Part shown: in pieces, positions 12,494 to 56,699 of the stretch | Position numbering within the stretch: the first letter of the stretch is position 1 | Layout: the number at the start of each line of letters is the position of its first letter | Assembly: GCA_025056255.1 (NCBI GenBank) | Contig: JANWVT010000003.1 | Location: 124,001 to 188,000 of the forward strand | Source of the DNA: Bernardetiaceae bacterium | Lineage (GTDB): Bacteria; Bacteroidota; Bacteroidia; Cytophagales; Thermoflexibacteraceae | DNA: 64,000 nt | Reading direction: 5' to 3' | Made by a program: the position numbers and the translations under genes | The notes under the pieces: generated by a model | The model's input: the letters and a program-made list of their open reading frames with translations, nothing else | Told to the model about the DNA's origin: nothing | The model's database searches: none

Positions 12494-12507
12494 ACTAACA
12501 CAATATA

Positions 12508-19609: not shown

Positions 19610-22600
19610 TTAAAAACCAATCTCAACACCGAAGGTATAATTGCGTGCTTGTGGCACCACGCCATTGTTACCAGCACCCAAGTTCAAAAATTCTGGGTCA
19701 TAACCTGTCCACTTAGTCCATGTGAGCAAGTTGATTGCCTGTGCATATACGCGAGCGCGGTTCACTTTTACTTTCTGCGTTAAATTTTGTGGCAAGTTGT
19801 AAGCCAAAGTAAGTTGTTTGAGGCGAATGTATGAAGCATCTTCCAGCGTACGAGAACCAGAAAGATGACTAGCGCCCCGTACTTCAGCATTGCCATTAAT
19901 AGGTCTTGGAACGTCTGTAATTTGTCCTGGGGTAGTCCAACGGCGCTCAAATACATCCAACAGAGAGTTAAACAAGCGTCCACCGTTTTCCATTAAGAAG
20001 CTGTTTTGGTTGTTGAATGCTTTACGACCGTATTCATATTGGAAGAATATGGTTAATTCCAAGCCTTTGTAAGAGAGAGTGTTAGTAAACCCGCCAAACA
20101 ACGTAGCCAATCCAGCGCCTAATACGCGGAAGTCAGCTGGGTTTTGCGGCAAGTAAGTGATATTGCCGTTGCGGTCATACCACATCGGGCGACCGGTAGC
20201 GGGGTTCACACCTGCATATTCGGCGGTGAAAATGGCACCAAGCGGATGTCCAATCCGAACAGAAGGGTTACCGGGCAATACTGTGTCGCCATCAGCTAAG
20301 CGGGTAACTTTGTTTTCTAATTTGGTAATATTGAAACTGGTAGTCCATTTGAACCCACGCGTATCAACATTAACAGTGTTGAGTTCGAACTCAATACCAC
20401 GGTTGTAGAGACGACCTACGTTGTTAGTAATGCTGCCGTAGCCACTCGTCCAAGGAACAGGCTGGTCTAAGAGCAAGTCGCGGCTTTCTTTGTTGAAATA
20501 ACCAATAGTAGAGGTGATACGGCGGTTGAAGAATGCCAAATCTAAACCTGCTTCAGAATTAATTTGGCGCTCCCAGCGCAAACTAGGATTGTTTAGGTTA
20601 GTAGGAGCAATACCGGCATCATTGCCATAGTTAAATCCTCCACCAAACAAACCACGAGAGTCGAAGTTGCCAATTTGGGAGTTACCAGTAGAGCCATAGC
20701 TGGCGCGCAATTTAATTTCGTCTATCCACGATACTTTGTCTTTCAGGAAGGCTTCTTCGGTAATCAACCAAGCTGCTGATACTGAGCCAAATGTACCGAA
20801 GATGTTATCTCTTCCGAAACGAGAAGAACCGTCCCGACGCAGCACTGAGTTAATAAAGTAGCGGTTTTTGAAGCCATATTGCATAATAGCTGCTACCCCT
20901 GCACGCCGATAGCTTGTCCAAAAACCACCAATGGAAACCGGAGTAGCACCCGTATTGGCAGTCCGGAATTGTGAAGTAGGGAAGGTAGTAACTTGCTGAT
21001 TAATACCCTCGAAAACTTCTTGTACGTATTCGGTTGCTAAGGTGGTGTTCAGTTTGTGGTCTGCCCCGATATTCTTAGCAAAATTAATCACCACAGGGTT
21101 GGCTGTGAAAGTAGCATTATATTCACTTTCGTTGGTCAAACGCCCTCTTACGCCAAAGCCATCGGCAGTGCGGGGGTCAGCATAGTATTCGCCTTTGATT
21201 TCCCGATAGTCTAAGCCATAGAAAGAGCTCACAGTAACTTCTTTAAACGGATTCCATACTGCTTTGGCATTGCCTACTACTTGGCGGGTGATATTGAGAA
21301 TAGTGTTGTACTCGGCGTTCATGATAACGTTTTGGTTCAAAATACCTGCTAAACCACCAGTAGCTGGCGTGCCAAAGTAAGAACCGTCTTCGTTGTAAAT
21401 GGGGTTAGTAGGAATAATCAGTGGTGAGGAGAAAGAAGGCGAACCCAAGAAAGAACCACCCGCTGGGCTACCAAAAGGACCGCGCTGTTTGATGTTGCTG
21501 AGGTTAACAGATGTTTCGAAGCGCAGCTTGTTGTTTACTTGGTGCTGAATCGCCATTCTACCCGTAGCACGCTTGAAATCTACGGCAATTACGTTGGCAT
21601 CTTGTTGGTTGTAGGAACCAGAGAGGGCAAAGGTAGTTTTATCGTTACCACCCCGAGCAGAGAGTTCAATATTATTAATCATTCCTTGCCGATAAGCAGC
21701 GCGTTGCCAGTCGTAAGTTGGCAAGGCAGCAATTTGCTCATCAGTCAAGTTGCCGGGTAGGCGAATACCTGTTAGGGCAGAACTGCGCGCTTGTGCCTCG
21801 GTAAGAGCTGGGTTTTGGTTGCGAAGAGCCTCAGTACGTACTTGAATCCACTGCTGGCTATTGAGTACATTCATGTAGCGAATAGGCTCAACGCTGCCAT
21901 AGTAATAGTTCAAGTTGAATTCTGTTTTGCCGGCACGTCCCTTTTTGGTAGTTACTAACACTACCCCATTACCTGCCTGCGCACCGTAAACAGAAGCCGC
22001 TGCTGCATCTTTCAATACTTCAATAGACTCGATATCGTTAGGGTTCAAAAACGCCAAAGGGTTAGAACTGGCAAATGCAGTAGTACTGGCATTGTTCATT
22101 ACCACACCATCCACGATGTAGAGGGGTTCGTTACCGGCTGTAATAGAACCAATACCACGGATGCGCACCGATACTGCACCACCGGGAACTCCATTGGCTG
22201 CCTGCACCAACACGCCTGCTGCTCGTCCTTGCAAGGCACGGTCAAAGCTTTGCATAGGCAGGTTCTGGATTACATCTCCTTTTACAGAAGCAATAGAGCC
22301 CGTGATTTCGCGTTTTTCCAATGCGCCGTAGCCGGTTACCACTACCTCAGACAATACCTTCTCGTCTGTTTCCATGCGCACGTCAATTGAAGAGCGACCT
22401 CCTATGGCAATTTCTTGGGTCTTTAAGCCCACAAAGCGGAATACCAACGTACCATTTTCCGGTGCCGACAAACTAAACTTACCGTCTGCATCGGTCTGCG
22501 TACCGGTGTTGGTACCTTTTATTTGCACGGTAACGCCGGGTAAGGGCGAACCGTCTTCGGAAGAAGTAACTCTTCCGGATACTGTTCTTGTCTGTGCCCA

Positions 22601-22666
22601 AGAGGCACTTGCAAAGAGCGTTGCAATTAGCCATGCAAAGCTCAGGTGTAACAATCGCTTCATCAT
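19610..22666 (-). CDS. SusC/RagA family TonB-linked outer membrane transporter
   Basis: 1018 aa. Signal peptide to about residue 25 (LFASASWAQ), then a carboxypeptidase-D regulatory-like domain (RTVSGRVTSSEDGSPLPGVTVQIKGTNTGTQTDADGKFSL), then the TonB plug with SEVVVTGYGA, RALQGRAAGVLV, VRIRGIGSI and YIVDGV, and DIESIEVLKDAAAASVYG. The rest is the 22-strand barrel, ending in an aromatic residue (TFGVEIGF) as outer membrane proteins do. Two start ATGs are adjacent (22666 and 22663). It is the first gene of the triplet SusC-SusD-lipoprotein and probably has its own promoter after the terminator at 22836-22867. Close paralogue of 24376-27438. Confidence 0.95.
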   Translation of the reverse strand: MMKRLLHLSFAWLIATLFASASWAQTRTVSGRVTSSEDGSPLPGVTVQIKGTNTGTQTDADGKFSLSAPENGTLVFRFVGLKTQEIAIGGRSSIDVRMETDEKVLSEVVVTGYGALEKREITGSIASVKGDVIQNLPMQSFDRALQGRAAGVLVQAANGVPGGAVSVRIRGIGSITAGNEPLYIVDGVVMNNASTTAFASSNPLAFLNPNDIESIEVLKDAAAASVYGAQAGNGVVLVTTKKGRAGKTEFNLNYYYGSVEPIRYMNVLNSQQWIQVRTEALRNQNPALTEAQARSSALTGIRLPGNLTDEQIAALPTYDWQRAAYRQGMINNIELSARGGNDKTTFALSGSYNQQDANVIAVDFKRATGRMAIQHQVNNKLRFETSVNLSNIKQRGPFGSPAGGSFLGSPSFSSPLIIPTNPIYNEDGSYFGTPATGGLAGILNQNVIMNAEYNTILNITRQVVGNAKAVWNPFKEVTVSSFYGLDYREIKGEYYADPRTADGFGVRGRLTNESEYNATFTANPVVINFAKNIGADHKLNTTLATEYVQEVFEGINQQVTTFPTSQFRTANTGATPVSIGGFWTSYRRAGVAAIMQYGFKNRYFINSVLRRDGSSRFGRDNIFGTFGSVSAAWLITEEAFLKDKVSWIDEIKLRASYGSTGNSQIGNFDSRGLFGGGFNYGNDAGIAPTNLNNPSLRWERQINSEAGLDLAFFNRRITSTIGYFNKESRDLLLDQPVPWTSGYGSITNNVGRLYNRGIEFELNTVNVDTRGFKWTTSFNITKLENKVTRLADGDTVLPGNPSVRIGHPLGAIFTAEYAGVNPATGRPMWYDRNGNITYLPQNPADFRVLGAGLATLFGGFTNTLSYKGLELTIFFQYEYGRKAFNNQNSFLMENGGRLFNSLLDVFERRWTTPGQITDVPRPINGNAEVRGASHLSGSRTLEDASYIRLKQLTLAYNLPQNLTQKVKVNRARVYAQAINLLTWTKWTGYDPEFLNLGAGNNGVVPQARNYTFGVEIGF

Positions 22667-22835
22667 TACTTGGTTTTGTTTTACAAGAATGTGTTAATCG
22701 CAAATGAATTATTTTTTTCGAAAAAGAAAAACAATAATCGCACAATTCCTGCGTTTTTACAATTTAAAGCCGGGCAGTAAGCATGTTACAACATGCAATT
22801 TTTCGTATAAAAAATTGATTATCAGTATAGTAGTA

Positions 22836-24375: not shown

Positions 24376-27300
24376 TTAAAAACGCGCCTGCACACCAATA
24401 GTATAATTCCGCGATTGTGGAATGATACCTTGGTTGCCTGTGCCCAAATCTACAAACTCGGGGTCGAAACCTGTCCATTTTGTCCATGTAAGTAAATTGA
24501 CTGCTTGTGCATATACACGGAATCCGTTGAGTTTCACCTTAGCCACCCATGCAGAGGGCAAGTTGTAAGACAAGGTCAGTTGCTTTAAGCGAATGTATGA
24601 AGCATCTTGATAGAACCGGCTGATAGATTGGTAGGAAGAAATGCGTCCTGTGATTTCAGTTCGGTTGTTAGCTGGCTTAGGCACATCGGTGATTTGTCCA
24701 GGGGTTGTCCAGCGATTTTCGTAGTAATAGCGCAAGCCATTGCGCAATACGCCCCCCAAATCTGCCAAGCGAAACTCCTGCTCGTTAGGCGCTATGCGTC
24801 CATAGTCATATTGGAAAAATACTGCCAGTTCCAATCCCTTGTAGCTAAATGTATTGGTAAAGCCGCCAAACATAGTAGAAAGATTGGAGTGTCCTAAGGG
24901 GCGCTGGTCGGCAGCCAATACCAAATAGGTGATGTTGTTATTAATGTCGTACCACATTGGGCGCCCATTAGCAGGGTTTACTCCTGCAAAAGGTACGCCT
25001 ACGTTAGTAAACAGCGGATATCCTACGCGAATACTCAAATTGCCCGGCAATACTTCCAAACCATCATAGAGTTTGGTTACTTTGTTTTCCAAGAAGGAAA
25101 TATTGAAGTTGGTTTCCCATTTAAAGCCTCTTTCAGTGTTGAAGTTTACTGTATTCAGTTCAATTTCAATGCCTTGGTTTTGCACTTCGCCTACGTTTTG
25201 CGTAATGCTACTAAATCCAGAGGTTTGAGGTACGGGCTGGCTGAGTAATAAATCTTTACTCAAACGGCGATAGGCCTCTACAGAGCCGCGGATGCGCCCT
25301 TCAAACAGGGCATAATCTACGCCTAAATTAGTTGTAACGTTGCGTTCCCAACGCAGTTCGGGGTTGCCCAAGCCACTTGGACCAATGCCCTGATTACCTT
25401 GGTAAGTACCTCCTAATCCATACAGGCTTCGAGAGGCAAAGTTGCCAATTTGGTCGTTGCCGGTGGTTCCCCAGCTTGCTCGGAGGCGCAACTCGCTAAG
25501 TACGGAATTGCCCTTTAAGAACGACTCCTCGCTAATGTTCCATGCAGCAGAAACAGAAGGGAAGAATCCAAAACGCCTAGCTGCACCAAAGCGAGAGGAG
25601 CCATCGTAGCGCGCCGTAAAGTTTAGAATATACTTTTTGTTGAAGTCGTAGCGAATGTTAGTAAAGGCGCCCGAACGGCGGAAACCTGTCCAAAATCCGC
25701 TGATGCTAACTGGACGCGCGGCAGCGTTGGTAGTACTAAAATCGGGTGTAGGAAAACCCTGACCGTTAGAGCCATTGGCTTCCTGAAAGTCTTCCCGATA
25801 TTCCGTACCTATTAAAGCATTGACGCTGTGCTTGTTGGCAAATGTTTTGGTATAGTTGAGCGTGGCATTAGTTGTCAGGTTTTTGTTGTAGTTGTTGTTA
25901 ACCGTTAGCGTGCCTTGAATGTTGAAGTAGTCCGACAAGCGTGGGTCGCCATAGAATTCGGTGTATAACATCCGATAGTCCATACCTCCAAATGCTTTAA
26001 AGGTTAAGCCTTTGGCGATGTTGTAGGTAGCCGAAATGTTGGCAACCATTTGGTTGGTCAAGCCCTTGGACTTGATAAAGTGAGAGTTGGCAATTACATT
26101 TTGGCTGAGGTCTCCTATCATCACTTTGCCAGTACCGGGCAACCCGAAAAAGCCTGTAGGCGCTTCAGGGTCATAAATGGGGTTAAATGGCAAAATAATC
26201 GGAGCAGAGTACTGAGGTGCTCCAAATGCTGTAGTACCACTGGAACTTCCATAAGGACCTCGCTGAGTGAAAGTACTTAAATTAACCCCTGTTTCAAACG
26301 AGAGTTTGCTGTTTACTTTCTGAGTCAAACTCAAACGACCTGCTATGCGTGAAAAGTCAATATTTATCAAACTTGCGTCTTGCTGATTAGCTGAAAGAGA
26401 AGCATAAAAAGTTGTTTTGTCTGTACCCCCACTGGCTGCTAATTCGTAGTTGTTGATGATACCTGTTTTGTAGGCTTCCTTCTGCCAGTTGTAAGTAGGT
26501 AGTGCTGCAATTTCTTCATCTGTCATAGTAGCAGGAAAACCCAGTTGAGTCAGGGCAGTGCTGCGAACAGAAGCCGGTGAAGCAGTGGGGCTGGCATTTT
26601 GAATAGCTTCGATGCGCACGTTGATAAATTCCTGTGTATTCATCACATCTAATATGCGCACTGGTTCTACAATGCCACGATAGTAATTAAACTCAAAATT
26701 GGTTTTGCTACCTTGTTTTCCTTTTTTGGTAGTAACTAATATAACACCATTAGCAGCTTGTGCGCCATAAATAGAAGCCGATGCCGCATCTTTCAACACC
26801 TCAATAGACTCAATATCGTTGGGATTAAGAAATGCCAGTGGGTTGTTGCTCACCCTACCGCCGCCGTCGTCGCGAATGTTCATTTGTACGCCATCGACAA
26901 TGTAAAGCGGTTGGTTGCCGGCAGAAATAGAGCCTACTCCACGAATGCGAACCGACACTGCACCGCCCGGCGCACCATTAGCAGACTGAACTAATACGCC
27001 CGCAGCCCTACCTTGCAAGGCGCGGTCAAAGCTTTGCATAGGTAAATTTTGGATAACATCGCCTTTTACAGAAGTAACAGCACCAGTTAGTTCGCGCTTT
27101 TCTACTACTGAATAGCCCGTTACTACTACCTCGCTGAGCATTTTTTCATCGGGCACCATAGAAACATCTATCACACTGCGGTTATTGATATCTACTTCTA
27201 GTGTGCGCAGCCCTACGAAGCGGAACACCAAAGTTTTGGCATTCTCATCCACATTAAGGCGAAACTTACCTTCAAAATCGGTTTGGGTACCAGTGTTTGT

Positions 27301-27438
27301 ACCTTTTACCTGCACCGTTACCCCCGGTAGCGGTTCTTTATCCTCATTAGAGATAACCCGCCCTGTAATGGTTCTTTGCGCCACTGCCCCAAAAGGCAAT
27401 AGCAGCAAAAGCAGAAAGGGTAGAAATTTCTGTTTCAT
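24376..27438 (-). CDS. SusC/RagA family TonB-linked outer membrane transporter (second copy)
   Basis: 1020 aa. Signal peptide MKQKFLPFLLLLLLPFGAVAQ, carboxypeptidase-D regulatory-like domain (TITGRVISNEDKEPLPGVTVQVKGTNTGTQTDFEGKF), then plug motifs SEVVVTGYSV, RALQGRAAGVLV, VRIRGVGSI, YIVDGV and DIESIEVLKDAASASIYG. The barrel ends IGVQARF. It is the middle gene of lipoprotein-SusC-SusD, starting 33 nt after the small lipoprotein gene. The first ~250 residues are nearly the same as in the other SusC, while the barrel has diverged, the pattern expected when ligand range has changed. Confidence 0.95.
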   Translation of the reverse strand: MKQKFLPFLLLLLLPFGAVAQRTITGRVISNEDKEPLPGVTVQVKGTNTGTQTDFEGKFRLNVDENAKTLVFRFVGLRTLEVDINNRSVIDVSMVPDEKMLSEVVVTGYSVVEKRELTGAVTSVKGDVIQNLPMQSFDRALQGRAAGVLVQSANGAPGGAVSVRIRGVGSISAGNQPLYIVDGVQMNIRDDGGGRVSNNPLAFLNPNDIESIEVLKDAASASIYGAQAANGVILVTTKKGKQGSKTNFEFNYYRGIVEPVRILDVMNTQEFINVRIEAIQNASPTASPASVRSTALTQLGFPATMTDEEIAALPTYNWQKEAYKTGIINNYELAASGGTDKTTFYASLSANQQDASLINIDFSRIAGRLSLTQKVNSKLSFETGVNLSTFTQRGPYGSSSGTTAFGAPQYSAPIILPFNPIYDPEAPTGFFGLPGTGKVMIGDLSQNVIANSHFIKSKGLTNQMVANISATYNIAKGLTFKAFGGMDYRMLYTEFYGDPRLSDYFNIQGTLTVNNNYNKNLTTNATLNYTKTFANKHSVNALIGTEYREDFQEANGSNGQGFPTPDFSTTNAAARPVSISGFWTGFRRSGAFTNIRYDFNKKYILNFTARYDGSSRFGAARRFGFFPSVSAAWNISEESFLKGNSVLSELRLRASWGTTGNDQIGNFASRSLYGLGGTYQGNQGIGPSGLGNPELRWERNVTTNLGVDYALFEGRIRGSVEAYRRLSKDLLLSQPVPQTSGFSSITQNVGEVQNQGIEIELNTVNFNTERGFKWETNFNISFLENKVTKLYDGLEVLPGNLSIRVGYPLFTNVGVPFAGVNPANGRPMWYDINNNITYLVLAADQRPLGHSNLSTMFGGFTNTFSYKGLELAVFFQYDYGRIAPNEQEFRLADLGGVLRNGLRYYYENRWTTPGQITDVPKPANNRTEITGRISSYQSISRFYQDASYIRLKQLTLSYNLPSAWVAKVKLNGFRVYAQAVNLLTWTKWTGFDPEFVDLGTGNQGIIPQSRNYTIGVQARF

Positions 27439-27471
27439 GTGTAATAAATTTAGTGTAGAACCAAAAGAAAC

Positions 27472-45520: not shown

Positions 45521-48500
45521 TTATCTTACAATTAAAAATCTAAGTACATATTGCTGCCCTTTGTAAAAAGTTTGCAATGTGTAATAGCCTGATGCCAAAC
45601 CTTTTAAATCGAACGGCTCTACGCCTGCATCAGTAGCTAACGACCACTGAGCGATTGTTCTGCCAGTAACATCTGTCAGTTGCAAAACAGCACCTTGCAT
45701 GCGCTCCCACTGGATAAATACGTAGTCGTGTGCTGGATTAGGAAATAGTTTCAGCCTTGTTGACAAATAGTTAGTATCGGGGGCAGCAGCAACAATTTCA
45801 ACTGGTCGGCTAAGCCATTCGGTGAAAGGTCCTGCATTGTTATGGAAACCCCACGCCCTTACGCGCAAGCGAATAGCTGCTGTTGCTAATTCTTGTGGCA
45901 GCACAAACCATTCCGATGTTACAAAAGTATGAACAACAATATTTTCGCTACCTATTAGTTGAATTTGCACCTCGTAACGGTTGATATTACCTTGCTCAGG
46001 GCGCTGCCAGCTAACATTAGTACCTATTATTTGCAAGTTACGAGGAGCGCTAATTGGCTGTAGGTGCACTTGCAAACTAACCGCTGCTGTAGCAACAGCT
46101 ACCACGTTCCCTGTTCCGGCAGTAAACAGCAATCCATCTGTACCAACAAATTCCGCAAAAGGCTGATATACCATTTGTGCCATTTCTCGTAGTGCATAGC
46201 GCTTTCCCGCCACTACCTTTTCATTGCCAATATGCAATGTACCATGAGATGGCAGCGAAACAATTTGAACAAAATCGGGTAACTGGTTGCCATAGTCGTA
46301 ATGGCGGATGAAGTCGTCAGCGCTAAATGCAAGGCTTTGGTTTTCGAATGTTTCTTTGCTAAATGAATGTACTTGTGGCAATATAAGAGGGGAAACTGTA
46401 AGCCGTACGGTTGCTGGTAAAGAATAATCTACGCCATCGGAAGCAGCCCACCTAAAACTGTCAGCCTGTGGCTGAGCGGGATTATGCGGCTTATAACTCA
46501 ATTCGTTGAGCTGTGCTACCGTTAAATAGGTAGGTTCTTCCAACGGTATTTGCCGGAAGAATAATTGTCCAAATTGTGGCAAGGAAAGAATGCGCACTTG
46601 TTCTATGGAGTCATTGTCGGCATCATAATAACTTGCTATAAAATGACGAGAGTCAAATACTATGTTGCCTGTTCCTGCTCGAGAAAAATCTTGCACAGTA
46701 GGTGGCGTATTCCATACATCAACGGTAAAGGCAGCCCACTCCTCTGCCCATTCGGTACCATCGTAGGCATTCCAAGAATAGCGTTTGGTACCTGTTTCTC
46801 GCGTGGGCTGGAAACGAATCACAGTGGTACTATCTAAGGGGAGGAGCATTCCTGAGTTGATAGGGCGACTGTTGCGCACCCATTGATTAGGTTGTACGTC
46901 GCCTATCAGCCGAATAGCAACTGGTAAATCGCCATCGGCATCTGAAAAAACAGCCAGCCAATCCGAATAAGTCAAATGTAAGGTTTGCCGCCAATGCATG
47001 CGCTTGCTCCATGCTTTTACCTGAGGAGGAGTGTTCCAAACTTGTATGCGAACTGTTGCAGGTGCGCTCCAATCTGCCCCGTCGGAAGCTTGCCATACAA
47101 AGCTGTCTTTGCCCGTAAAACCTTCAGCAGGTTGGTAAGCCAAGTTGGCAATGGCTTGCCGGTATAATGCTACAGGCACGTCTGTTAGTGGACGCTCATT
47201 CAGCATCAGCCGTCCGTTTGCTGGCAATTGCACAATGCGCAGCATTGAAAGCGAGTCATTTTCTATGTCGCTGTAAAGCGCGTCGAAAAAGGCAATGCTA
47301 AATACAAAACGACTCCCCGATTTAACGCGAATGTGAGCATCCACAACAGACGGAGCATCGTTCACTGGTAGTATCTTAATGTTAAACTTCTGCACAGCCC
47401 CCCTTCTGCCATTGCTAACTATGATGGTAACACTTGTTTTGCCAAAACGATTAGGGGCGGGGCTAATCATAAGACGGCGATTAGCATTGCTGCCTATCCA
47501 GCGAAATGCATGAGGAGGTAAGAGCGCATAGTCATCGGCAAAAACATGAATAGAAAGCAATTCGTCAGATAGCTCGCCGTAGTGAATCCGCACTGGAACC
47601 AATACAGGCGTATCTTCAAGCGTTTCTACATCGGCAATAGGGTCAATTGTAGGAATAGGCAAGATAGGCTCTGGACGCTTCACTACCCGCAAGTTCACCA
47701 TGGCAGGAGTAGCGGCAAAATCGGTTCCATCTGAGGCTGACCACTGAAAACTGTCTGTACCTAAAAAATCCAAGTTAGGTTGATATGCCAACAAGTGAAT
47801 TTGAGCAGCAGGAATGACCATATGGAGCGTTACAGGTGCACCATTGAACCACAACTGCCCATTAGCAGGCAAGCTCATGATTTTGATACTTGCCAGAGGT
47901 GAATTTTCTACATCGGCATAGTGGCTGCTAAATTGCAAAGCAGTAAAGTATCGCAAAGTATTCTCCCAAACATCTACTGAAAAGTGGCTAACAGTTGGTA
48001 AGTCATTTACAGGCGTAACCGTAACTTGGAAAATGCGAGTAGCGGTTATAGTGCCATCAGTAGCTGTAATAGTAATTTGTGCTGTACCATGCTGATTGGG
48101 CAGCGGCGTAATGTGCAATTGGCGAGCAGCACCTGTGCCCATCCAAACCAAATTGCTATTGGGAATAAGGGCAGCATTGTTGCTGCTCACAGTAATGGTT
48201 AGCAAGGTTTCAGGCAGTACCCCGTAGGTAATATGCACTGGCACGCTAACAGCCACGTCCTCAGGAGTAGTTACGTCTGCAATAGGGGCAATAGCAGGAG
48301 GGTTGTTGCAAATTTCTATATCTTGTTCTATTGTGCAGCCATTGCGCTGATAGCGAAAGCGATAAGTTCCGGGCGTAGTAAACAACCGCGTTGTGGTAGT
48401 GCTGCTGTTGTCTAACCATTCAAATCCGTTGTAAATAGGAGTAAACGCCCAAGCCTGCGCTACTATGTCGCTGCTAAGGCTTTGGTTGTTCATTCCCGGC

Positions 48501-51500
48501 AAGGCAATTCCCTGCGTTCCTTCTCTATTCTCAATGCCTGCAATAATTTTTACTAGCGGAGAGGCATCTATGCGCGCAATGTGCAATTCTATGCGGTTGA
48601 AAGTTTCGTACAGGATAATCTGCCCGCTTACGCGCTTGCTGATGTCGGCGTTTGATGCCATGTCTAAAAACTCTACTATAAAGCGGCGTTGTGGAGCTGT
48701 TCCAACAGTTTGATAGCGGATTTTACTGCCTGTTACAAAGCGCATGTCGTTCCATGCCAAAGCAATAAAATCGTTGATAGTGAGCGTATTCGGAATGGCA
48801 CGCTGTAAAAAGTTAACATAGTCGAGTTCTATATTGCGGAAGGTGATGAACCCCTCTGCACCGACAAAAACATTTTCAAACAAACACCCATAAAATTCAA
48901 ACGGGAAACCAATGGGAATAGCTCCTGAGTAGCCGTCGTCGGTTAGGGTAAGTTCTGTAGCACTGCTCATGTTCTCAGGCTGAAAAGCAATGCTGCTGAG
49001 CGCGTAGCCGTCGTTGGGAAGACCACTTACCTGAATCAGTTTGGGAACAGTGCAAACAGAAAGTGCAGGCGAAGCATTGATAGTTGGCACAGGTACAGAA
49101 GGAACTTCTACGGTTGCAGCCTGAGTGTTATTAGTGAATATCAAGTCGGCAGCCCATTGCACTTGTGCTTCTATCTGGTATTGAGCAGAGGATGGTGGCA
49201 AAAAAATATGACTAAACACATAATTAGTAGTCTGCAAACTACCTAAGTCTGCTGATAGTGTCAGATTTTCGTGTATCCAAGCACCACCGTTGATGCGGTA
49301 AGCAACCGGAATAACTGTGCCAGCCGGAATAGTATTCAATCCTTTGTTTTGCAGCGTGAGGCGTATTTGCAAGGGCTGCAAAGGTGCAAAGCATCCTCCT
49401 GCTGGAATTTGGTGCATAACTTGGGTGAGTGCTATGTCTTGTGCCGCACCAGTGCCAGTAGGTGTGCCAAATCCTGCATAAGCAAAAATACCGGAGGCAT
49501 TCAGGGTATTGTTTCGCGTCCTCACCGAAAGCCAATGCCTAATACCATTTTCAAGCCCTGTAACTGTGTAAGTAGTAGTGGTATGCGGAACGGTAGCAAT
49601 ATGTTCCCATGCTCCTCTTTGCAGATTTAGCCACAAAATTTCATAGGCATCGGCTCCGGCTGCCGCTGTCCAAGAGAATGTCAGGCTATTGTTGCCGGGC
49701 ACATAGGGCGTGATGTTAGGATTAGGAGTAATATTAGGAATCCCCAAAAACAACAGAGGTGGCGATGTGTGAGAGTGTACCGCACCACTTGCACCTGTTG
49801 CCGAAATGCGGATGCGGGCATTGTTGGTAACAATTGCCGGCGGGGTCCATGCAAATTTGCCTTGTGAAGCAGGAACTGAGCCCAGCGTTTGCCAAGTGGC
49901 ACCATCGAAAAATTCAATTGTTACATTGCCGGGAATGTCGCGGCAGTCCCAGTGCACAGGCGACATATCTCGCTCATGGGTAGTAGGATTGCGCAAGACA
50001 AGAAACTCGCCTTCTTGTTGCCATGTAAGGGCAAAGGCTTGAGTATTGCCTATGGCAATGGAAGCTCCTGTTACGCTAATTTCCCATGTTCCCTCTTCTG
50101 GCAAATTAATGACTATCTGTTCGTTGTTATTCAGGTTGTCTGTTCCCTCAGTAGCTACACTGGCAGGTGAGGCAGGGTTTAGCACCAGTGGCAGCCTAAT
50201 AGTTCCCGAAGGCGATTTTGCTTGTAAGTTCAGATTATTCACCAAAGCAGGCAAAGCATTGGGCAAGGCAGCAGGGTCGTTCCACGACAACATAATTTTC
50301 AACTGTTTGCTGCCTGTTGGCACATAAACATAATGCTTGAAAGTTTGCCCTTGTGCCACTTCATTCAGCACAAACCGATTCTCTGTAATAGCAGCAGCGG
50401 CGTTAAGTGCATGTACCTTTCCAAATCCGAAGATGTAATCCGGTCCGGGATTGCCCAAATCGGTGGCGCCATTTAGCAAAACAGCGCGAATAAGGGCAGC
50501 AGGAGGTGTTTGCCCGCTGTTTAACTCTCTGTAGTGCTGATAAAGCAAAGCTGCCACACCCGAAACGTGAGGGGCAGCCATAGAAGTGCCGCTCCAGCCG
50601 CTGCTGGCATAGAAATGGTCGGGTGTGGTAGAAAAAATATTAACCCCTGGGGCAGCTATGTGCGGTTGCAAACGTCCGTCGCGTGCCGGTCCGGCAGCAC
50701 TTTGCATATGACCCAACCACATCCGCTGATTGTTGGCATCTAAACTTGCCACACTGATGATGTTCTTAGCCCCATGAACAGTATTGCGATATCCTCCACA
50801 ACTTCCCCCACTGTTGCCTGTTGCAAACACATGCAGCAACTCGGGAAATGCATTGGCTACCAAATCTTGCGAGCGATTTGTAGAGGAATAATTGATTCCT
50901 CCTGCAGAGCAAGTATGTGACGGACCATAAGAATTTTGTGTAATGACAATTTGCCGCTGCTCAACGGCTTTGAGCATTTTGTAAGGAATATAGCTTTCTG
51001 CTGAACTAGTAGAAACAATGTTATAATTGAACAGTTGTGCTTCCGGAGCAATGCCACGTCCGTAGATAAAGCGCAGCCCCGCACCTGCCAAAGTGCCCGA
51101 AACATGGGTAGCATGCTCACGCCAGCTAAACGATTCGCCCATCAGTGGCTCTTCCTGAGACGTGCGATTGACAAAATCTACGTGCGGACCAATCAATCCG
51201 CTGCCATCCCATACGCCAATGCGCACTCCCTTGCCGGTCAGTTGTGGCAATTGAAACTGCAGTGCACCTGTCCGTGTTTCAGTAACTCCAAACTGATTGT
51301 GTAACTGTTCCTTTACCACATAATCGGCACTCACAATCCATGGCTCCTCCATCAAACGCCGAAGATGTTTTTGATGAAGGCTAACTCGGGCTACATCAAA
51401 TGCAGGATAAAAAGCCAATAGCTTCACACCTGTCGGTAACAGCCTCTTCACCTCTACCTCATTCATTTGGGGAAGAGTGATTAAATCAACCTGTAGCTCT

Positions 51501-51913
51501 CCATTGTTTTGTTGTACTTCGGCAGGAATTTCTTCGTCCCAGTCAAAAGTAGCTTTCGCGCGCTCATCCCAATCGGAAAGAGCCTCTACAAATGGCAAGG
51601 CTTGCACTCGGCTAACCGCCGATACAGGTAGCTGCAACAAATAGCGCCCATTGCCCAAATAGGCTATTATTTTGCATTCATAGCTGTCTAAAATGCTTTT
51701 CTGCTTGGCAGAAAGAACCTGCTGAAAGTGTGCTGCCAGTACAAGATTGTTCCGATACTGCCTTCTTTTAATGTAGGCGCTGCCTTCCTTGCTTTGCCAA
51801 AACTGCAACGATGCGGGTAACTGCCTGTGTATTTCCGAAGAATGTGTTTGAGCCAAAACAGAAAACGCCCACACGCATATCACCCAAAGAACGATAGTAG
51901 CTTTTCTATTCAT
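45521..51913 (-). CDS. Giant T9SS-secreted subtilisin-like serine protease (S8), 2130 aa
   Basis: Signal peptide MNRKATIVLWVICVWAFSVLA. A propeptide-like region leads to an S8 domain with an intact triad: Asp in RIGVWDGSG (~234), His in HATHVSGTLAG (~268), Ser in SGTSMAAPHVSG (~440), and oxyanion Asn in FATGNSGG. Downstream are a pre-peptidase/jelly-roll-like segment, a fibronectin III domain (NSLTFSWTAAAGADAYEILWL), a CARDB-like part, then alternating cadherin-like (IAPIADVTTPEDVAVSVPV; IADVETLEDTPVLVPV) and tandem Ig-like repeats containing ILSLPQFGQLFFRQI and ASDGTDF/ASDGADW. It ends with a T9SS sorting domain (LKLFPNPAHDYVFIQW ... SGYYTLQTFY). Same strand as the 3747-aa gene, 70 bp upstream of it. 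Likely an extracellular protease; substrate unknown. Confidence 0.92.
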   Translation of the reverse strand: MNRKATIVLWVICVWAFSVLAQTHSSEIHRQLPASLQFWQSKEGSAYIKRRQYRNNLVLAAHFQQVLSAKQKSILDSYECKIIAYLGNGRYLLQLPVSAVSRVQALPFVEALSDWDERAKATFDWDEEIPAEVQQNNGELQVDLITLPQMNEVEVKRLLPTGVKLLAFYPAFDVARVSLHQKHLRRLMEEPWIVSADYVVKEQLHNQFGVTETRTGALQFQLPQLTGKGVRIGVWDGSGLIGPHVDFVNRTSQEEPLMGESFSWREHATHVSGTLAGAGLRFIYGRGIAPEAQLFNYNIVSTSSAESYIPYKMLKAVEQRQIVITQNSYGPSHTCSAGGINYSSTNRSQDLVANAFPELLHVFATGNSGGSCGGYRNTVHGAKNIISVASLDANNQRMWLGHMQSAAGPARDGRLQPHIAAPGVNIFSTTPDHFYASSGWSGTSMAAPHVSGVAALLYQHYRELNSGQTPPAALIRAVLLNGATDLGNPGPDYIFGFGKVHALNAAAAITENRFVLNEVAQGQTFKHYVYVPTGSKQLKIMLSWNDPAALPNALPALVNNLNLQAKSPSGTIRLPLVLNPASPASVATEGTDNLNNNEQIVINLPEEGTWEISVTGASIAIGNTQAFALTWQQEGEFLVLRNPTTHERDMSPVHWDCRDIPGNVTIEFFDGATWQTLGSVPASQGKFAWTPPAIVTNNARIRISATGASGAVHSHTSPPLLFLGIPNITPNPNITPYVPGNNSLTFSWTAAAGADAYEILWLNLQRGAWEHIATVPHTTTTYTVTGLENGIRHWLSVRTRNNTLNASGIFAYAGFGTPTGTGAAQDIALTQVMHQIPAGGCFAPLQPLQIRLTLQNKGLNTIPAGTVIPVAYRINGGAWIHENLTLSADLGSLQTTNYVFSHIFLPPSSAQYQIEAQVQWAADLIFTNNTQAATVEVPSVPVPTINASPALSVCTVPKLIQVSGLPNDGYALSSIAFQPENMSSATELTLTDDGYSGAIPIGFPFEFYGCLFENVFVGAEGFITFRNIELDYVNFLQRAIPNTLTINDFIALAWNDMRFVTGSKIRYQTVGTAPQRRFIVEFLDMASNADISKRVSGQIILYETFNRIELHIARIDASPLVKIIAGIENREGTQGIALPGMNNQSLSSDIVAQAWAFTPIYNGFEWLDNSSTTTTRLFTTPGTYRFRYQRNGCTIEQDIEICNNPPAIAPIADVTTPEDVAVSVPVHITYGVLPETLLTITVSSNNAALIPNSNLVWMGTGAARQLHITPLPNQHGTAQITITATDGTITATRIFQVTVTPVNDLPTVSHFSVDVWENTLRYFTALQFSSHYADVENSPLASIKIMSLPANGQLWFNGAPVTLHMVIPAAQIHLLAYQPNLDFLGTDSFQWSASDGTDFAATPAMVNLRVVKRPEPILPIPTIDPIADVETLEDTPVLVPVRIHYGELSDELLSIHVFADDYALLPPHAFRWIGSNANRRLMISPAPNRFGKTSVTIIVSNGRRGAVQKFNIKILPVNDAPSVVDAHIRVKSGSRFVFSIAFFDALYSDIENDSLSMLRIVQLPANGRLMLNERPLTDVPVALYRQAIANLAYQPAEGFTGKDSFVWQASDGADWSAPATVRIQVWNTPPQVKAWSKRMHWRQTLHLTYSDWLAVFSDADGDLPVAIRLIGDVQPNQWVRNSRPINSGMLLPLDSTTVIRFQPTRETGTKRYSWNAYDGTEWAEEWAAFTVDVWNTPPTVQDFSRAGTGNIVFDSRHFIASYYDADNDSIEQVRILSLPQFGQLFFRQIPLEEPTYLTVAQLNELSYKPHNPAQPQADSFRWAASDGVDYSLPATVRLTVSPLILPQVHSFSKETFENQSLAFSADDFIRHYDYGNQLPDFVQIVSLPSHGTLHIGNEKVVAGKRYALREMAQMVYQPFAEFVGTDGLLFTAGTGNVVAVATAAVSLQVHLQPISAPRNLQIIGTNVSWQRPEQGNINRYEVQIQLIGSENIVVHTFVTSEWFVLPQELATAAIRLRVRAWGFHNNAGPFTEWLSRPVEIVAAAPDTNYLSTRLKLFPNPAHDYVFIQWERMQGAVLQLTDVTGRTIAQWSLATDAGVEPFDLKGLASGYYTLQTFYKGQQYVLRFLIVR

Positions 51914-51979: not shown

Positions 51980-52987
51980 TTAAAACAGGTGTTTCATCCA
52001 TATTTTCCACCGCTGAGTAGGCGACAGCAGTTGCTTAGATAGCCTAGCATGACTGTAAGCCCGTGCTATGCCCGCTGCTATTCCTTCTTGTGTCAAAATG
52101 GACAGCCAAAACCTGCTAAGCAATTGGTTCATAGACTGTTGTAAGTCGGGACGGTTGATATGATGACGAGTAAACGCTTGCCAAAGTTTCAAAAGCCAGT
52201 CATGAGCAGCAACAATAAATGCACTGTCGGGACTAATTATTTGGTCGCCTATGGCAAGGTGCAAGTCAAGTTCCGATTCAGATGGATGAAGCCCCAAGGT
52301 TTGCAACTGATTGCTCACGATTTGTCGGGTGTAGCGTTTAGCCTGCGAGTTTTTAGAAGAGGTTATACTTTGCTGATGTACGCGGTAATAAACCAGTATT
52401 TCGGGAATCAGTGCGGCTTGGGTTACTTTAATTAGGCGCATCCAAAACTCATAGTCTTCTTGGATGGGGTATTGAGCAGCATCGTATTTTAGCAATGCAT
52501 AGCGGCGCCGCATCATAATGCCCGTGTGCACAAAACAGTTGTGAAAATACATGCGGGCGTAAATCTGTGGCGAGCCGAGTCGCATAACCCATTGTTCACC
52601 GGTAAGCTCGCCCTGAGAGTCTATAATAGCCACCCAACAGCTACAAAACCCTATCTCCGGATGCTTTTCTAAAAAATTGACTTGGGTTGCCAACCTATGA
52701 GGCAAGGAAATATCATCCGCATCCATGCGAGCAATGTACTCACCTTGGCAAAGGTCAATAGCTTTGTTTAACGTAGCTGTTAGCCCTAAATTCTCAGAAT
52801 TATGAATAAGCCTAATGCGCGCGTCGCGGGCGGCATAGCTTTCCAAAATAGCAGCGCTGCTATCTGTAGAAGCGTCATTTATCAGTAGCAGTTCAAAGTT
52901 GGTGAAGGTTTGGTTTAAAATGCTTTCAATAGCAGCTGCTACATATTTTTCGGCATTATAAACAGGAAGAATAACACTGATTTCCAA
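51980..52987 (-). CDS. Glycosyltransferase family 2
   Basis: 335 aa. GT-A fold signature at the N-terminus (ISVILPVYNAEKYVAAAIESILNQTFTNFELLLINDASTDSS) and the metal/nucleotide-binding motif RMDADD near residue 95. The acceptor-side EDYEFWMRL motif (QEDYEF) and the C-terminal helices are those of GT2 enzymes that add sugars to polysaccharide or lipopolysaccharide. No membrane segment. It is the last gene of a minus-strand run (GT4-deacetylase, methyltransferase, GT2), with 6 nt between it and the methyltransferase gene, so one operon is likely. The sugar and acceptor are unknown. Confidence 0.93.
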   Translation of the reverse strand: MEISVILPVYNAEKYVAAAIESILNQTFTNFELLLINDASTDSSAAILESYAARDARIRLIHNSENLGLTATLNKAIDLCQGEYIARMDADDISLPHRLATQVNFLEKHPEIGFCSCWVAIIDSQGELTGEQWVMRLGSPQIYARMYFHNCFVHTGIMMRRRYALLKYDAAQYPIQEDYEFWMRLIKVTQAALIPEILVYYRVHQQSITSSKNSQAKRYTRQIVSNQLQTLGLHPSESELDLHLAIGDQIISPDSAFIVAAHDWLLKLWQAFTRHHINRPDLQQSMNQLLSRFWLSILTQEGIAAGIARAYSHARLSKQLLSPTQRWKIWMKHLF

Positions 52988-52993
52988 TAGGCT

Positions 52994-53863
52994 CTATCGT
53001 TTACTGACAATAGCTGCAATGTGTTTAGATTGTGTTTTGCCCATGTTGCGGGCTATTTTTTTCAAAAATAGTGCAAATGGTTTGTTGGCAAGCACCTTTT
53101 TTGCCCAAGTAGTATGTCGAAACGCTTTCAAAAGGCTTTCAAAACGATACCAAAGACGGTCGTAAAGCAATTCGATGCGTTCAATTTGCCAAGGTGCTTG
53201 GCGCAAAGTTGGCTCTATTTTGGGGTGCAAGCGAGGATGCAGATAGTCTGTAAATACAGCATAGGCATGCGGCTTCATTACTCGGTAAATTTCTTTTACT
53301 GCTTTCCGCTGTAAATGGTCGGACAGGTGCCATCCATGTAAGCCATCGGAGGCAACCACAATATCAAAACAGTGGTCTTTAAAAGGCAGGTCGGTTGCGC
53401 TACCTACAACAAACAAATAAGGATTATGCTGGTCTGGTAAGGATTGTAAGCAACGCTGCCGAGCTTTTTTAATAGCAGTAAGCGAAATATCCATGCCTAC
53501 TAACAACTCTGCATAAGGATGTAAACGAGCAGTGATATGTCCTAAACTACAACCTATGTCTAAAATAATGGCTTTACGTCCTAAAAGGCTACTCATTCGA
53601 GCAACTTGATCTACTACATAATCGTGGCGAAGCAGTTCAGCAGCACGTTCGCTGTAGTCCCAAGGTTCTGCGGTGTTTTGGTAAAAATTTTCAAAAAAAA
53701 TAGTAGCCTCTTGCTGATTTAGCAACTCCTGAGGCAGCATTACCGGTACGTTGTCAACAAGTGGATAGCTACAATGGGTAGTAACTACTTCTTTGTCGGT
53801 AAGTTGAAAAACTTTTTCACCCGTTTGGGGGCAAATGAGCAATTGGGTAAACGAATGAGTCAT
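52994..53863 (-). CDS. Class I SAM-dependent methyltransferase with Trm112-like N-terminus
   Basis: 289 aa. The N-terminus (LLICPQTGEKVFQL ... HCSYPLVDNVPVML) resembles the Trm112/zinc-ribbon-like leader often fused to methyltransferases in glycan clusters, though with a reduced cysteine set. The Rossmann domain shows the SAM loop ILDIGCSLGHITARL, then LLVGMDISLTAIKKAR, a DLPFKDHCFDIVVASDGLHGW stretch and EIYRVMKPHAYAVFTDYL. The methyl acceptor may be a sugar or lipid-linked glycan given its neighbours, but that is inference. Gaps of 6 nt to the GT2 gene and 15 nt to the GT4-deacetylase gene support co-transcription. Confidence 0.85.
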   Translation of the reverse strand: MTHSFTQLLICPQTGEKVFQLTDKEVVTTHCSYPLVDNVPVMLPQELLNQQEATIFFENFYQNTAEPWDYSERAAELLRHDYVVDQVARMSSLLGRKAIILDIGCSLGHITARLHPYAELLVGMDISLTAIKKARQRCLQSLPDQHNPYLFVVGSATDLPFKDHCFDIVVASDGLHGWHLSDHLQRKAVKEIYRVMKPHAYAVFTDYLHPRLHPKIEPTLRQAPWQIERIELLYDRLWYRFESLLKAFRHTTWAKKVLANKPFALFLKKIARNMGKTQSKHIAAIVSKR

Positions 53864-53878
53864 ATATGCTTAGAAAAT

Positions 53879-55726
53879 TTATATTTTACGTTTCCATCGA
53901 TAATATTTCCGATACCACGACGAAGTTTTCTTCAACATTTGCAACCAGCTATCGTGTGGGAAAATACTCGTACGGAAAATTTCAAAGCGGTCTTGTTCAA
54001 TGTGCAGCCCTCCTCTGTCGGTGGCTACTGCCATGGCAAATCCTGCTTTTTGGGCAAGTGTTTTCACTTGTTGGTTATAAAACCCAAACGGATAAGCAAA
54101 CACCTCTACGGTATTGCCTGTTTCGTGTTCAAGCGCATTTTTGCTATTAAAAATTTCTTGCCAAGCCTCTTGCTCGCAAAGTTGCGTCAGGTCGGGGTGG
54201 GTCATGGTATGGGCACCCACTTCCCAACCGGCTTGTACAAAAGCTGCCCTTTGTTGCTCGTTCATGAGTTCATCGCGGTGGTCGCCCTTGTCTGCATCCC
54301 AATAGTTGTACCTGATGCGTGTATCGCCTAACATAAAAATCACCCCTTTGTAACCATACTGATTCATTAGAGGCAATAAGTTGTAATAATTATCCTGATA
54401 ACCATCGTCAAAGGTAAGAATAATAGGGCGCTTAGGAGCTGTTTGATTAGATTTCTCGCCACGTGTGTAAGCAAGGTATTCTTTGAAAGTGATAGGCTGT
54501 AAGCCACGCCACTTGATAATTTGTAAATGTTTGCGAAAGGTTTCTTTGGTAACAAAAATTTTATGCAAACTTTCAATAGGCTTGTCCGGAATTTTATGAT
54601 ACATCAAAATAGGAATAGGCTTACGCCAAATTCGGCAAGCAATGGCTTTTTCATATACACCATGAATAGCCCGATAAACTTTTTCTACATTGTAAAAGTC
54701 TTGTACGTAGTGCTGCATCTGAGCAGAGGGACAGTAGTAGGCATTCTCAAGAAAGCAATCTAAATCGCGATAAAACTGTTGCCAATCAAAGCCGGGAAAG
54801 TTTTTTGTGGGCAGTATATCGCCATAGTTAGATGCAATAGCTGCTTGCAAATTGGCTTCTGTAATCAAGCCATGATAGCAGGCTTCACCAATGGCAAATA
54901 GTGGTTTGCGCAATGCCAGTGCCCCCAGCCCTACCCTGCCTGCTCCAATAATAGCATAAGCGCCAAGCATGCGTTTGGGCACATCATTTACAAAACCAGT
55001 AACTACAATGCGTTGATTGTACTGCTGATTAAGGTTGTTAATAGCTTGCCGATAATGCTGTGGAAGTTCGTTGTAGCCCCCACCAATCAGAAACAGCCGA
55101 ATGTCAGCATATTTTTTCAGCAATTCTGGAAAAACGCGCGTGGCAATTTGTGCAGCAATCTCACCCTTTCTGCCATTAAGTCTGCCAATCAGTAAAATAT
55201 CTCGAGAAACAGGTGCATGATTTTCTTGCTCAGCTATCAGTTCGGAAATCAAACTAAACTCTGCACCATTGGGAATATTGTGAATCTTTTGAGAGCTCAT
55301 TCCCACTTCTTCAATCAGATGCTTGGTCAGATTAGGACATATAGAAATAACTTGGTCGCCGTAGATATCAAAAATTTTAACGGAGGTGTGCAACTGTTGC
55401 CTGCCGTGAATCGTAGAGACAAGCGGCGTTTTCAGACCCAAAGTAGCAAAGTAACACACCCAACTGGAAGCACGCGAGTGCGCATGTACTACGTGTATGT
55501 CGTTGGCTAAAATAAATTGTCGAATGAACCGAATGTTGTTAAACCTTTGGCGATATGTTCTGTCAGAAATGGGAAGAGGCGTAATTTTGGCTTCTGTTTC
55601 TAAGGTACCGTCATCGGTAATAATGAAAACGCGGTGCCCTTCTCGGATTTGCTTTTTGCTTAGGCTAAGAACGTAATTGGTAGAACCTGACAGAAAGTTC
55701 GTACACATTACATGTAAAATGTTCAT
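53879..55726 (-). CDS. Glycosyltransferase (GT4-like) fused to NodB-type polysaccharide deacetylase
   Basis: 615 aa. The N-terminal ~370 residues form a GT-B glycosyltransferase (LHVMCTNFLSGSTNYVLSLSKKQ; HVVHAHSRASSWVCYFATLG; STIHGRQQLH; NIPNGAEF; ILLIGRLNGRKGEIA). In the nucleotide-sugar motif, AGRVGLGALALRKPLFAIGE, the usual second glutamate of the E-x7-E pattern is not in place (GA at the LEAM position), so activity is uncertain. The C-terminal ~240 residues are a NodB domain with RPIILTFDDGYQDN, the HTMTHPDL metal histidines and FAYPFGFYN, all intact. Both activities in one chain suggest transfer and deacetylation of N-acetylated sugars. The cytosolic or membrane location is unclear: no signal peptide. 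Confidence 0.88.
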   Translation of the reverse strand: MNILHVMCTNFLSGSTNYVLSLSKKQIREGHRVFIITDDGTLETEAKITPLPISDRTYRQRFNNIRFIRQFILANDIHVVHAHSRASSWVCYFATLGLKTPLVSTIHGRQQLHTSVKIFDIYGDQVISICPNLTKHLIEEVGMSSQKIHNIPNGAEFSLISELIAEQENHAPVSRDILLIGRLNGRKGEIAAQIATRVFPELLKKYADIRLFLIGGGYNELPQHYRQAINNLNQQYNQRIVVTGFVNDVPKRMLGAYAIIGAGRVGLGALALRKPLFAIGEACYHGLITEANLQAAIASNYGDILPTKNFPGFDWQQFYRDLDCFLENAYYCPSAQMQHYVQDFYNVEKVYRAIHGVYEKAIACRIWRKPIPILMYHKIPDKPIESLHKIFVTKETFRKHLQIIKWRGLQPITFKEYLAYTRGEKSNQTAPKRPIILTFDDGYQDNYYNLLPLMNQYGYKGVIFMLGDTRIRYNYWDADKGDHRDELMNEQQRAAFVQAGWEVGAHTMTHPDLTQLCEQEAWQEIFNSKNALEHETGNTVEVFAYPFGFYNQQVKTLAQKAGFAMAVATDRGGLHIEQDRFEIFRTSIFPHDSWLQMLKKTSSWYRKYYRWKRKI

Positions 55727-55756: not shown

Positions 55757-55808
55757 GTTTGTCCCAGTGTAATGGTTTTATTTTGTAACAGCTTCATTGT
55801 TTGGTAAA

Positions 55809-56699
55809 ATGAATCATTTGTCTTCGCGTCCAAAAATCAGCGGTTTTACAATTGTTCGCAATGCTATTAAATACGATTACCCAGTAGTGGAGTCTATCCA
55901 ATCCATATTGCCTGTTTGCGATGAAGTAGTAGTAGCCGTGGGCAAATCCGAAGACGATACGTTAGAACTCATTCGCAACATTCCATCTGATAAGATAAAA
56001 ATCTTAGAGACGGTGTGGGACGAGTCGCTACGCACCGGTGGAAAAGTCTTAGCAGCTGAAACCAACAAAGCCTTCGATGCAGTATCGCCTGATGCCGACT
56101 GGGCATTTTATATTCAGGCAGACGAAGTACTGCATGAAAAATATCATCCCGTCATATTAGAAGCCACTACCCGCTACTTGCACAACGAAGAAGTAGAAGG
56201 GCTATTGTTTCACTACACTCATTTTTACGGCACATATCGCTTTGTAGCAGATTCGCGCAACTGGTACCGTCACGAAATCCGCATTATTCGCAACCAGAAA
56301 GATATACGCTCTTACCGAGATGCACAAGGGTTTCGCCGCCATAACCGCAAATTACGAGTAAAACTCATAGACGCACATATTTATCACTATGGCTGGGTCA
56401 AAAATCCTTATCAACAGCAACAAAAAATGCAAGATTTGCACGTTTATTGGAGCGATGTAGCCATACCGCGCCATGTGCTGGAAGCTAAGGACCTCTACGA
56501 CTACGGCAAAATTGATTCGGTAACTCTTTTTCAAGGAACGCATCCTTTAGTGATGCAAAAACGTATAAACAGTGCCGATTGGGAGGTGAACTTAGACCCT
56601 ACTGTTAAGAACCTGAGCCTAAAAAATCGGATTTTGGCTACAGTAGAACAGCTCACCGGCAAGCGGTTATTTGAATACAAAAATTACGAGTTAATCTGA
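55809..56699 (+). CDS. Glycosyltransferase family 2-like protein
   Basis: 296 aa from the ATG at 55809 (MNHLSSRPKISGFTIVRNAIKYDYPVVESIQSI). A TTG 12 nt upstream is an unlikely start. The GT-A pattern is of the short GT2 class: VVVAVGKSEDDT, WAFYIQADEVLHEKYH as the DxD-like site, and RHEIRIIRNQKDIRSYRDAQGFRR. The last third has YHYGWVKNPYQQQQKM. It may transfer a sugar to a glycan made by the divergent operon, but acceptor and sugar are unknown. The stop and the next start share one base (TGATG), so the following exported protein is translationally coupled. Confidence 0.85.
   Translation: MNHLSSRPKISGFTIVRNAIKYDYPVVESIQSILPVCDEVVVAVGKSEDDTLELIRNIPSDKIKILETVWDESLRTGGKVLAAETNKAFDAVSPDADWAFYIQADEVLHEKYHPVILEATTRYLHNEEVEGLLFHYTHFYGTYRFVADSRNWYRHEIRIIRNQKDIRSYRDAQGFRRHNRKLRVKLIDAHIYHYGWVKNPYQQQQKMQDLHVYWSDVAIPRHVLEAKDLYDYGKIDSVTLFQGTHPLVMQKRINSADWEVNLDPTVKNLSLKNRILATVEQLTGKRLFEYKNYELI

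Follow-up and report, generated by a model that had tools for sequence, protein, structure and literature searches.

The fusion gene and its neighbors

The window, meaning the whole stretch of DNA that was analyzed, comprises 64,000 nucleotides of a contig from a Bernardetiaceae bacterium (accession # JANWVT010000003.1). One of its genes encodes a protein in which a GT-B glycosyltransferase (GT) half of the GT4 type is followed by a polysaccharide deacetylase of the CE4/NodB type. The original prediction, made from the sequence letters, had placed both activities on one chain and gave no strand; matches to the Pfam families PF13439 and PF01522 fall on the same 615-aa frame on the minus strand. 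This protein has a single match in its own genome. The features are collected in Table 1.

Table 1. Features of the fusion gene and of adjacent genes, in window coordinates.
Feature	Position	Strand	Basis or remark
GT4-like/CE4 fusion protein (P0001), 615 aa	53879..55726	minus	open reading frame with exactly the predicted bounds
GT-B (GT4-like) half, residues 1-361 (boundary approximate)	54644..55726	minus	PF13439 and sub-threshold PF13692; length of GT-only homologues
CE4/NodB polysaccharide deacetylase domain, residues 428-565	54032..54445	minus	PF01522 (Polysacc_deac_1), 99.9 bits versus 23.1, 1.3e-28
AGRVGLGALALRKP, residues 262-275	54902..54943	minus	starts at residue 262
G268 codon, at the place of the second Glu of EX7E	54923..54925	minus	alignment
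Residues 7-20 around invariant G14	55667..55708	minus	densest group of genus-only substitutions
R182...K187, putative phosphate-binding pair	55166..55183	minus	invariant in 46/46 rows having these columns
D440-D441 of TFDDG	54404..54409	minus	D in 44/45 rows having the columns
H506...H510 (HX3H), metal-ligand motif	54197..54211	minus	H in 43/44 rows having the columns
C-terminal tail KTSSWYRKYYRWKRKI, basic and aromatic	53882..53929	minus	KKT/KKC tail, then Trp/Tyr/Arg, in 10/11 rows shown (absent from L055)
SAM methyltransferase, 289 aa, 15 bases downstream of the fusion	52994..53863	minus	PF08241; same place in 4/4 genus genomes (window included)
GT2 glycosyltransferase, 335 aa, after the methyltransferase	51980..52987	minus	PF00535; same place in 4/4 genus genomes (window included)
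300-aa protein, divergent to the fusion	55797..56699	plus	neighbor in 4/4 genus genomes (window included)

The N-terminal GT4 domain, PF13439 (Glyco_transf_4), matches residues 13-155 with 76.2 bits against a cut-off of 28.5, and the C-terminal donor domain, PF13692, matches residues 175-253 at 24.8 bits, below its cut-off of 27. The GT half is about as long as two GT-only homologues, L013 and L080, which occupy frames of 370 and 374 aa. Neither carries a deacetylase half, so the GT half can occur without its fusion partner; L080 adjoins GT2 and GT17 genes.

The CE4 domain can be aligned with polysaccharide deacetylases of solved structure, 6dq3 among them, and PgaB chains are also solved relatives. 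D440, D441, H506, and H510, presumably the catalytic and metal-binding residues as in other CE4 enzymes, are all present in the window protein when it is aligned with 6dq3, in agreement with the original prediction that the deacetylase residues are intact. The NCBIfam matches of this half include the poly-GlcNAc deacetylases PgaB and IcaB (TIGR03938, 2.5e-20, and TIGR03933, 1.1e-9), at scores far under the equivalog cut-offs (72.3 versus 321.9 bits and 38.2 versus 248.35 bits, respectively).

The N-terminus of the fusion opens directly on the first Rossmann strand, and no leader is apparent by eye; both halves should therefore act in the cytosol. PgaB and IcaB act outside the cytoplasm, unlike what the absence of a leader suggests for the fusion. 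The basic, aromatic C-terminal tail may contact the membrane. AlphaFold2, given the window protein together with the orthologue from L031 in one prediction, returned a pLDDT of 35.5 and a pTM of 0.26, too low for a usable model. On the plus strand, a 185-aa frame (53774-54331) lies antisense to the deacetylase end, and the matches to it in relatives are antisense to the orthologue as well; this frame probably only shadows the coding strand.

The gene order of the block, from the GT2 gene to the divergent 300-aa gene, is the same in all four genomes of the genus, including the window. The 300-aa protein had no Pfam or NCBIfam match at 0.001; by eye, it resembles a divergent GT2. It is 79-87% identical in the three other genomes of the genus, above the value for the fusion (71-77%). 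A blastp search at 1e-8 found no match to the methyltransferase, the GT2, or the 300-aa gene of the window in eight neighborhoods of 9-15 kb from other genera (L080, L082, L083, L084, L086, L087, L088, and L089). The few other matches there were to distant window genes (12499-14613, 19613-22693, and 24379-27471) and to the antisense frame. A different GT2 is the neighbor in two members from another genus of the family. Further downstream in the window (45521-51913, minus strand) lies a gene for a 2130-aa protein, by eye a subtilisin-like protease that contains repeats and ends in a T9SS-like sorting domain at the C-terminus.

Across the order, a match at 1e-40 was obtained in 40 of 390 genomes. 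These include G028 and G129, where the match covers the GT half only (frames of 370 aa and 374 aa, respectively), and G170, where it is split over two contigs. Among 395 genomes of the phylum, 28 matched at 1e-30; the match spans both halves in 12 of them and is confined to the deacetylase half in the other 16. Two phage records matched at 1e-10, both over the deacetylase half only, and a scan of viral contigs for more relatives gave 52 pattern matches and no relative. Six records of the plasmid collection matched at 1e-20, one of them, from Fusobacterium, over both halves. This record (L106, accession # NZ_CP084075.1) is a 2.1-Mb Fusobacterium vincentii sequence deposited as a plasmid; its size suggests a chromosome. 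An orthologue with 77% identity is present in an uncultured Cytophagales MAG. Among the literature matches listed, no title or abstract opening described this GT4-CE4 fusion.

The glutamates of the EX7E motif

We aligned 47 loci, 46 of which cover position 268. They were drawn from 98 relatives, 390 genomes of the order, and 395 genomes of the phylum, sets that overlap; the full-length fusions of G207, G220, G296, and G326 from the order search lie outside this alignment. Residue 268 is Gly in all four members of the window's genus. Outside the genus, it is Glu in 41 of 42 rows and Asp in the remaining one, the GT-only L013. The second glutamate that the original prediction reported as missing is thus indeed gone, and all orthologous fusions sampled from the genus share the substitution. 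A profile built from 14 orthologues of other genera supports the identification of the site: GRVAIEAL falls on GRVIVEAM of 4xso, which contains the second Glu of EX7E.

Two other accounts of G268 are rejected. A sequencing or assembly error, or chance, does not explain a Gly found in four genomes with differing codons (GGG in two and GGA in two), whose GT subdomains are 67-93% identical. Nor is this a subfamily that never uses glutamate here, the outcome that the original prediction had named as counting against it: besides the 41 rows, the full-length fusion of F. vincentii (32% identity) carries Glu in GAGRVAFEAL. The other GT4-CE4 fusions from outside the genus, in the phylum and in this one Fusobacterium record, have the same architecture at about 30-50% identity and Glu at 268.

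The motif is more degenerate than had been noticed. Its first Glu is absent as well, which the original prediction missed: residue 260 is Ile or Val in 46/46 rows. Relative to Alr3699 (4xso), presumably the enzyme called HepE, the loop bearing the first Glu is 7 residues shorter, as read from the alignment, and the profile alignment to solved chains shows that the other-genus orthologues are likewise without the 7 residues that carry it. Alr3699 and the glycosyltransferase 7mi0 are solved relatives of the GT half for which the profile alignment covers the motif; both have the two glutamates on a longer loop, whereas the window protein has neither.

The genus forms one clade, with a support of 1.0, in the tree of the GT half and in that of the CE4 half. 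By parsimony, the second Glu was lost once, before the sampled members of the genus split. Because the position of the first Glu is occupied by Ile or Val in all 46 rows, the subfamily had already left the EX7E consensus when this loss took place.

As a base rate, we aligned 39 GT4-like loci, a non-random set of best-scoring matches in which some loci overlap. The second position is Glu in 33, Asp in one, and clearly non-acidic in two (Ile in L111 and Thr in L114); rows L123, L129, and L136 are misread or gapped and uninformative. L111 (946-2073; G000:C13:65188-66315) is encoded in the same genome as the fusion and belongs to a GT4-like family with TQSGVxQIAYHF at the EX7E site. No acid occupies the position of the second Glu in any of 24 sequences of this family, including the query; they come from the 24 genomes, of 59 searched, that had a match. 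The family is another case in which the second Glu is missing, and an older one.

Conservation and selection in the GT half

The original prediction offered two readings of the altered motif, a binding or scaffold module and a changed chemistry. The first corresponds to a pseudo-glycosyltransferase: in this genus, the GT half would have ceased to transfer sugar and would bind the glycan or the nucleotide, handing the substrate over to the deacetylase. The loss of both glutamates and the sub-threshold score of PF13692 are what such a protein might show, as is the number of columns kept: of the columns that are at least 90% conserved outside the genus, the four members keep 49 of the 59 that lie in the GT half, compared with 51 of 55 for CE4. 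The GT value (83%) is low, yet it lies inside the range of 11 other clades or single rows, which keep 68-98% of the same columns in the GT half and 64-98% in the CE4 half. Most of the changes are also mild. Eight of the 10 GT columns not kept in all four members have conservative replacements (I/V, L/M, S/C, A/V or A/S, S/T, F/Y); only 266 and 268 do not. A domain that is visibly altered, the CE4 half of L060, retains far less by comparison, 35 of 55 well-conserved columns. L060 (G479:C39:145784-147550), an orthologous fusion, is the reverse case: the GT half has its Glu, and the CE4 motifs read FES-YDDN and SASHSSPK instead of FDDGYxDN and xHTxxHP.

Residues under the strongest constraint speak against a pseudo-glycosyltransferase. 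Of the 25 GT columns that never vary outside the genus, 24 are unchanged in its four members, the exception being residue 3 (I/V). G14, H83, R85, H107, R182, K187, R264, E281, N300, and D303 are invariant in 46/46 rows; we take R182 and K187 to be the putative phosphate-binding, basic pair that precedes the donor site, as in other GT4 enzymes. Members of the genus differ from one another about as much in the GT half as in the CE4 half: L001 and L004 are 74.7% identical in the N-terminal GT subdomain, 71.1% in the C-terminal one, and 69.3% in CE4. The dN/dS values for the pair L002/L003 are 0.125, 0.087, and 0.075 in the same order; this is the least saturated pair of the genus, and the others, with saturated or nearly saturated dS, were left out. 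In this pair, the GT half is under purifying selection.

The branch leading to the genus is long in the GT half (0.753, compared with 0.391 in the CE4 half), a ratio of 1.93 versus 1.29 for the whole trees. Comparison branches have ratios of 1.39 (g6 stem), 1.29 (L008), and 2.16 (L039). Such a disproportionate stem is what a burst of change would leave, whether adaptive or under relaxed selection, with constraint setting in afterwards; it counts toward a pseudo-glycosyltransferase. With the remaining sugar-transfer site intact (R182, K187, H83, H107, and E281 included) and purifying selection in the one pair, we do not favor the pseudo-enzyme and consider it unlikely. To judge from these conserved residues, the GT half is probably still an enzyme.

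The second reading, a changed chemistry, asks for more than is needed when compared with published accounts of WsaF, PaWaaG, and GnaT. In the structure of the GT4 rhamnosyltransferase WsaF, the second Glu, E333, contacts the deoxyribose at O3, and the E333A mutant is weakened without losing all activity; the enzyme is active without the first Glu of EX7E (PMC3898925). WsaF thus resembles the window protein in the first position and differs in having E333; the parts of PMC3898925 drawn on here mention no deacetylase domain. PaWaaG uses Glu289 to position the ribose and Glu281 to position the sugar (PMC10579960). For GnaT, E283A causes a near-total loss and E291A a partial one, both described by the authors as substantially reduced, and the authors' model places E291 at a phosphate and not at the ribose (PMC12856342). 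Alanine mutants of this glutamate in WsaF and GnaT are weakened but keep activity, and the glutamate holds the ribose or deoxyribose in WsaF and PaWaaG; the change is therefore better described as a changed ribose contact, and the part of the prediction that may stand is an altered nucleotide pocket. These single-mutant precedents do not cover the genus enzyme, in which both glutamates are missing, and none of them is a proven enzyme lacking both. The L111 family, in which the second position has no acid, counts on the side of an active GT half.

Alternatively, the genus may have switched its nucleotide donor or pocket. E268G and the changes at residues 7-20 would then re-tune the base and ribose site, for instance, for a dTDP donor, whose deoxyribose has fewer hydroxyls to bind. 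The genus-only changes do group at residues 7-20, beside the invariant G14: 8 of the 43 genus-fixed rare residues fall there, and 116 of 20000 random placements were as dense, in a test that ignores phylogeny and whose width was picked after seeing the list. PaWaaG has Gly15 in contact with the phosphate and Arg18 in contact with the ribose (PMC10579960); these residues may sit in the loop equivalent to 7-20. However, WsaF uses a dTDP donor and still has the second Glu (PMC3898925), and no convincing acidic stand-in for the lost Glu was found among the genus-fixed acids that are rare outside the genus (39, 43, 55, 162, and 323, none of them in the motif). Such a switch of donor or pocket strikes us as quite unlikely.

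Proposed function and comparison with known systems

We lean modestly toward a cytosolic bifunctional glycan enzyme that transfers an N-acetylhexosamine (HexNAc) to a surface glycan and removes its acetyl group, with a remodelled nucleotide pocket in this genus. The adjacent GT2 and methyltransferase genes fit surface-glycan synthesis and, together with the retained metal and catalytic residues of the CE4 half, its likeness to PgaB and IcaB, and the precedent of WabH and WabN, they lead us to read the fusion as a HexNAc transferase/de-N-acetylase. The activity of the GT half, the HexNAc donor, the order of the steps, and the identity of the glycan are what we infer. The GT-B half would move an N-acetylhexosamine from a nucleotide sugar to a surface-glycan intermediate (LPS core or exopolysaccharide), and the CE4 half would then strip the acetyl group to expose a free amino sugar. 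Within the genus, the change from E268 to Gly would have removed one ribose contact, and the residues around the glycine-rich loop (7-20) would have been altered along the same branch. R182, K187, G14, and further retained residues would still allow the GT half to bind its donor.

The precedent comes from the LPS core of Klebsiella pneumoniae, where the GlcNAc transferase WabH and the LPS-GlcNAc deacetylase WabN are both needed for GlcN (PMC8552709). The two steps match those proposed for the fusion and are carried out by two proteins there and by one chain here; the likeness is drawn as an analogy of function. A deacetylase/transferase pair is likewise needed for GlcN in the LOS of Acinetobacter baumannii (PMC10936431).

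The order of the steps could also be the reverse, with the CE4 half deacetylating the nucleotide sugar and the GT half then transferring the free amino sugar. For the GlcN of A. baumannii, a first step in which UDP-GlcNAc is deacetylated has been proposed for the 2901/2900 pair (PMC10936431). However, the same authors favor transfer before deacetylation for the GalN of that core, the CE4 half matches deacetylases of polymers and oligosaccharides (PgaB, IcaB), and WabN of K. pneumoniae is described as an LPS-GlcNAc deacetylase (PMC8552709). We hold the reverse order to be very unlikely.

Beyond transfer followed by deacetylation, a more specific proposal is that the genus keeps an active GT4 enzyme with neither Glu of EX7E, its pocket rebuilt around the loop at 7-20 on the branch on which the second Glu was lost, possibly for a new donor nucleotide, and with the fused deacetylase processing the product. 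We offer this proposal tentatively, as possible if rather doubtful.

If the GT half is active, this would be a GT4-type enzyme able to work with neither glutamate of a motif that is often used to recognize the family. The natural Gly and Glu orthologues would then make the role of the second Glu directly testable. The fusion ties HexNAc transfer and de-N-acetylation to one polypeptide, which would help to predict which amino sugars these bacteria carry in their surface glycans.
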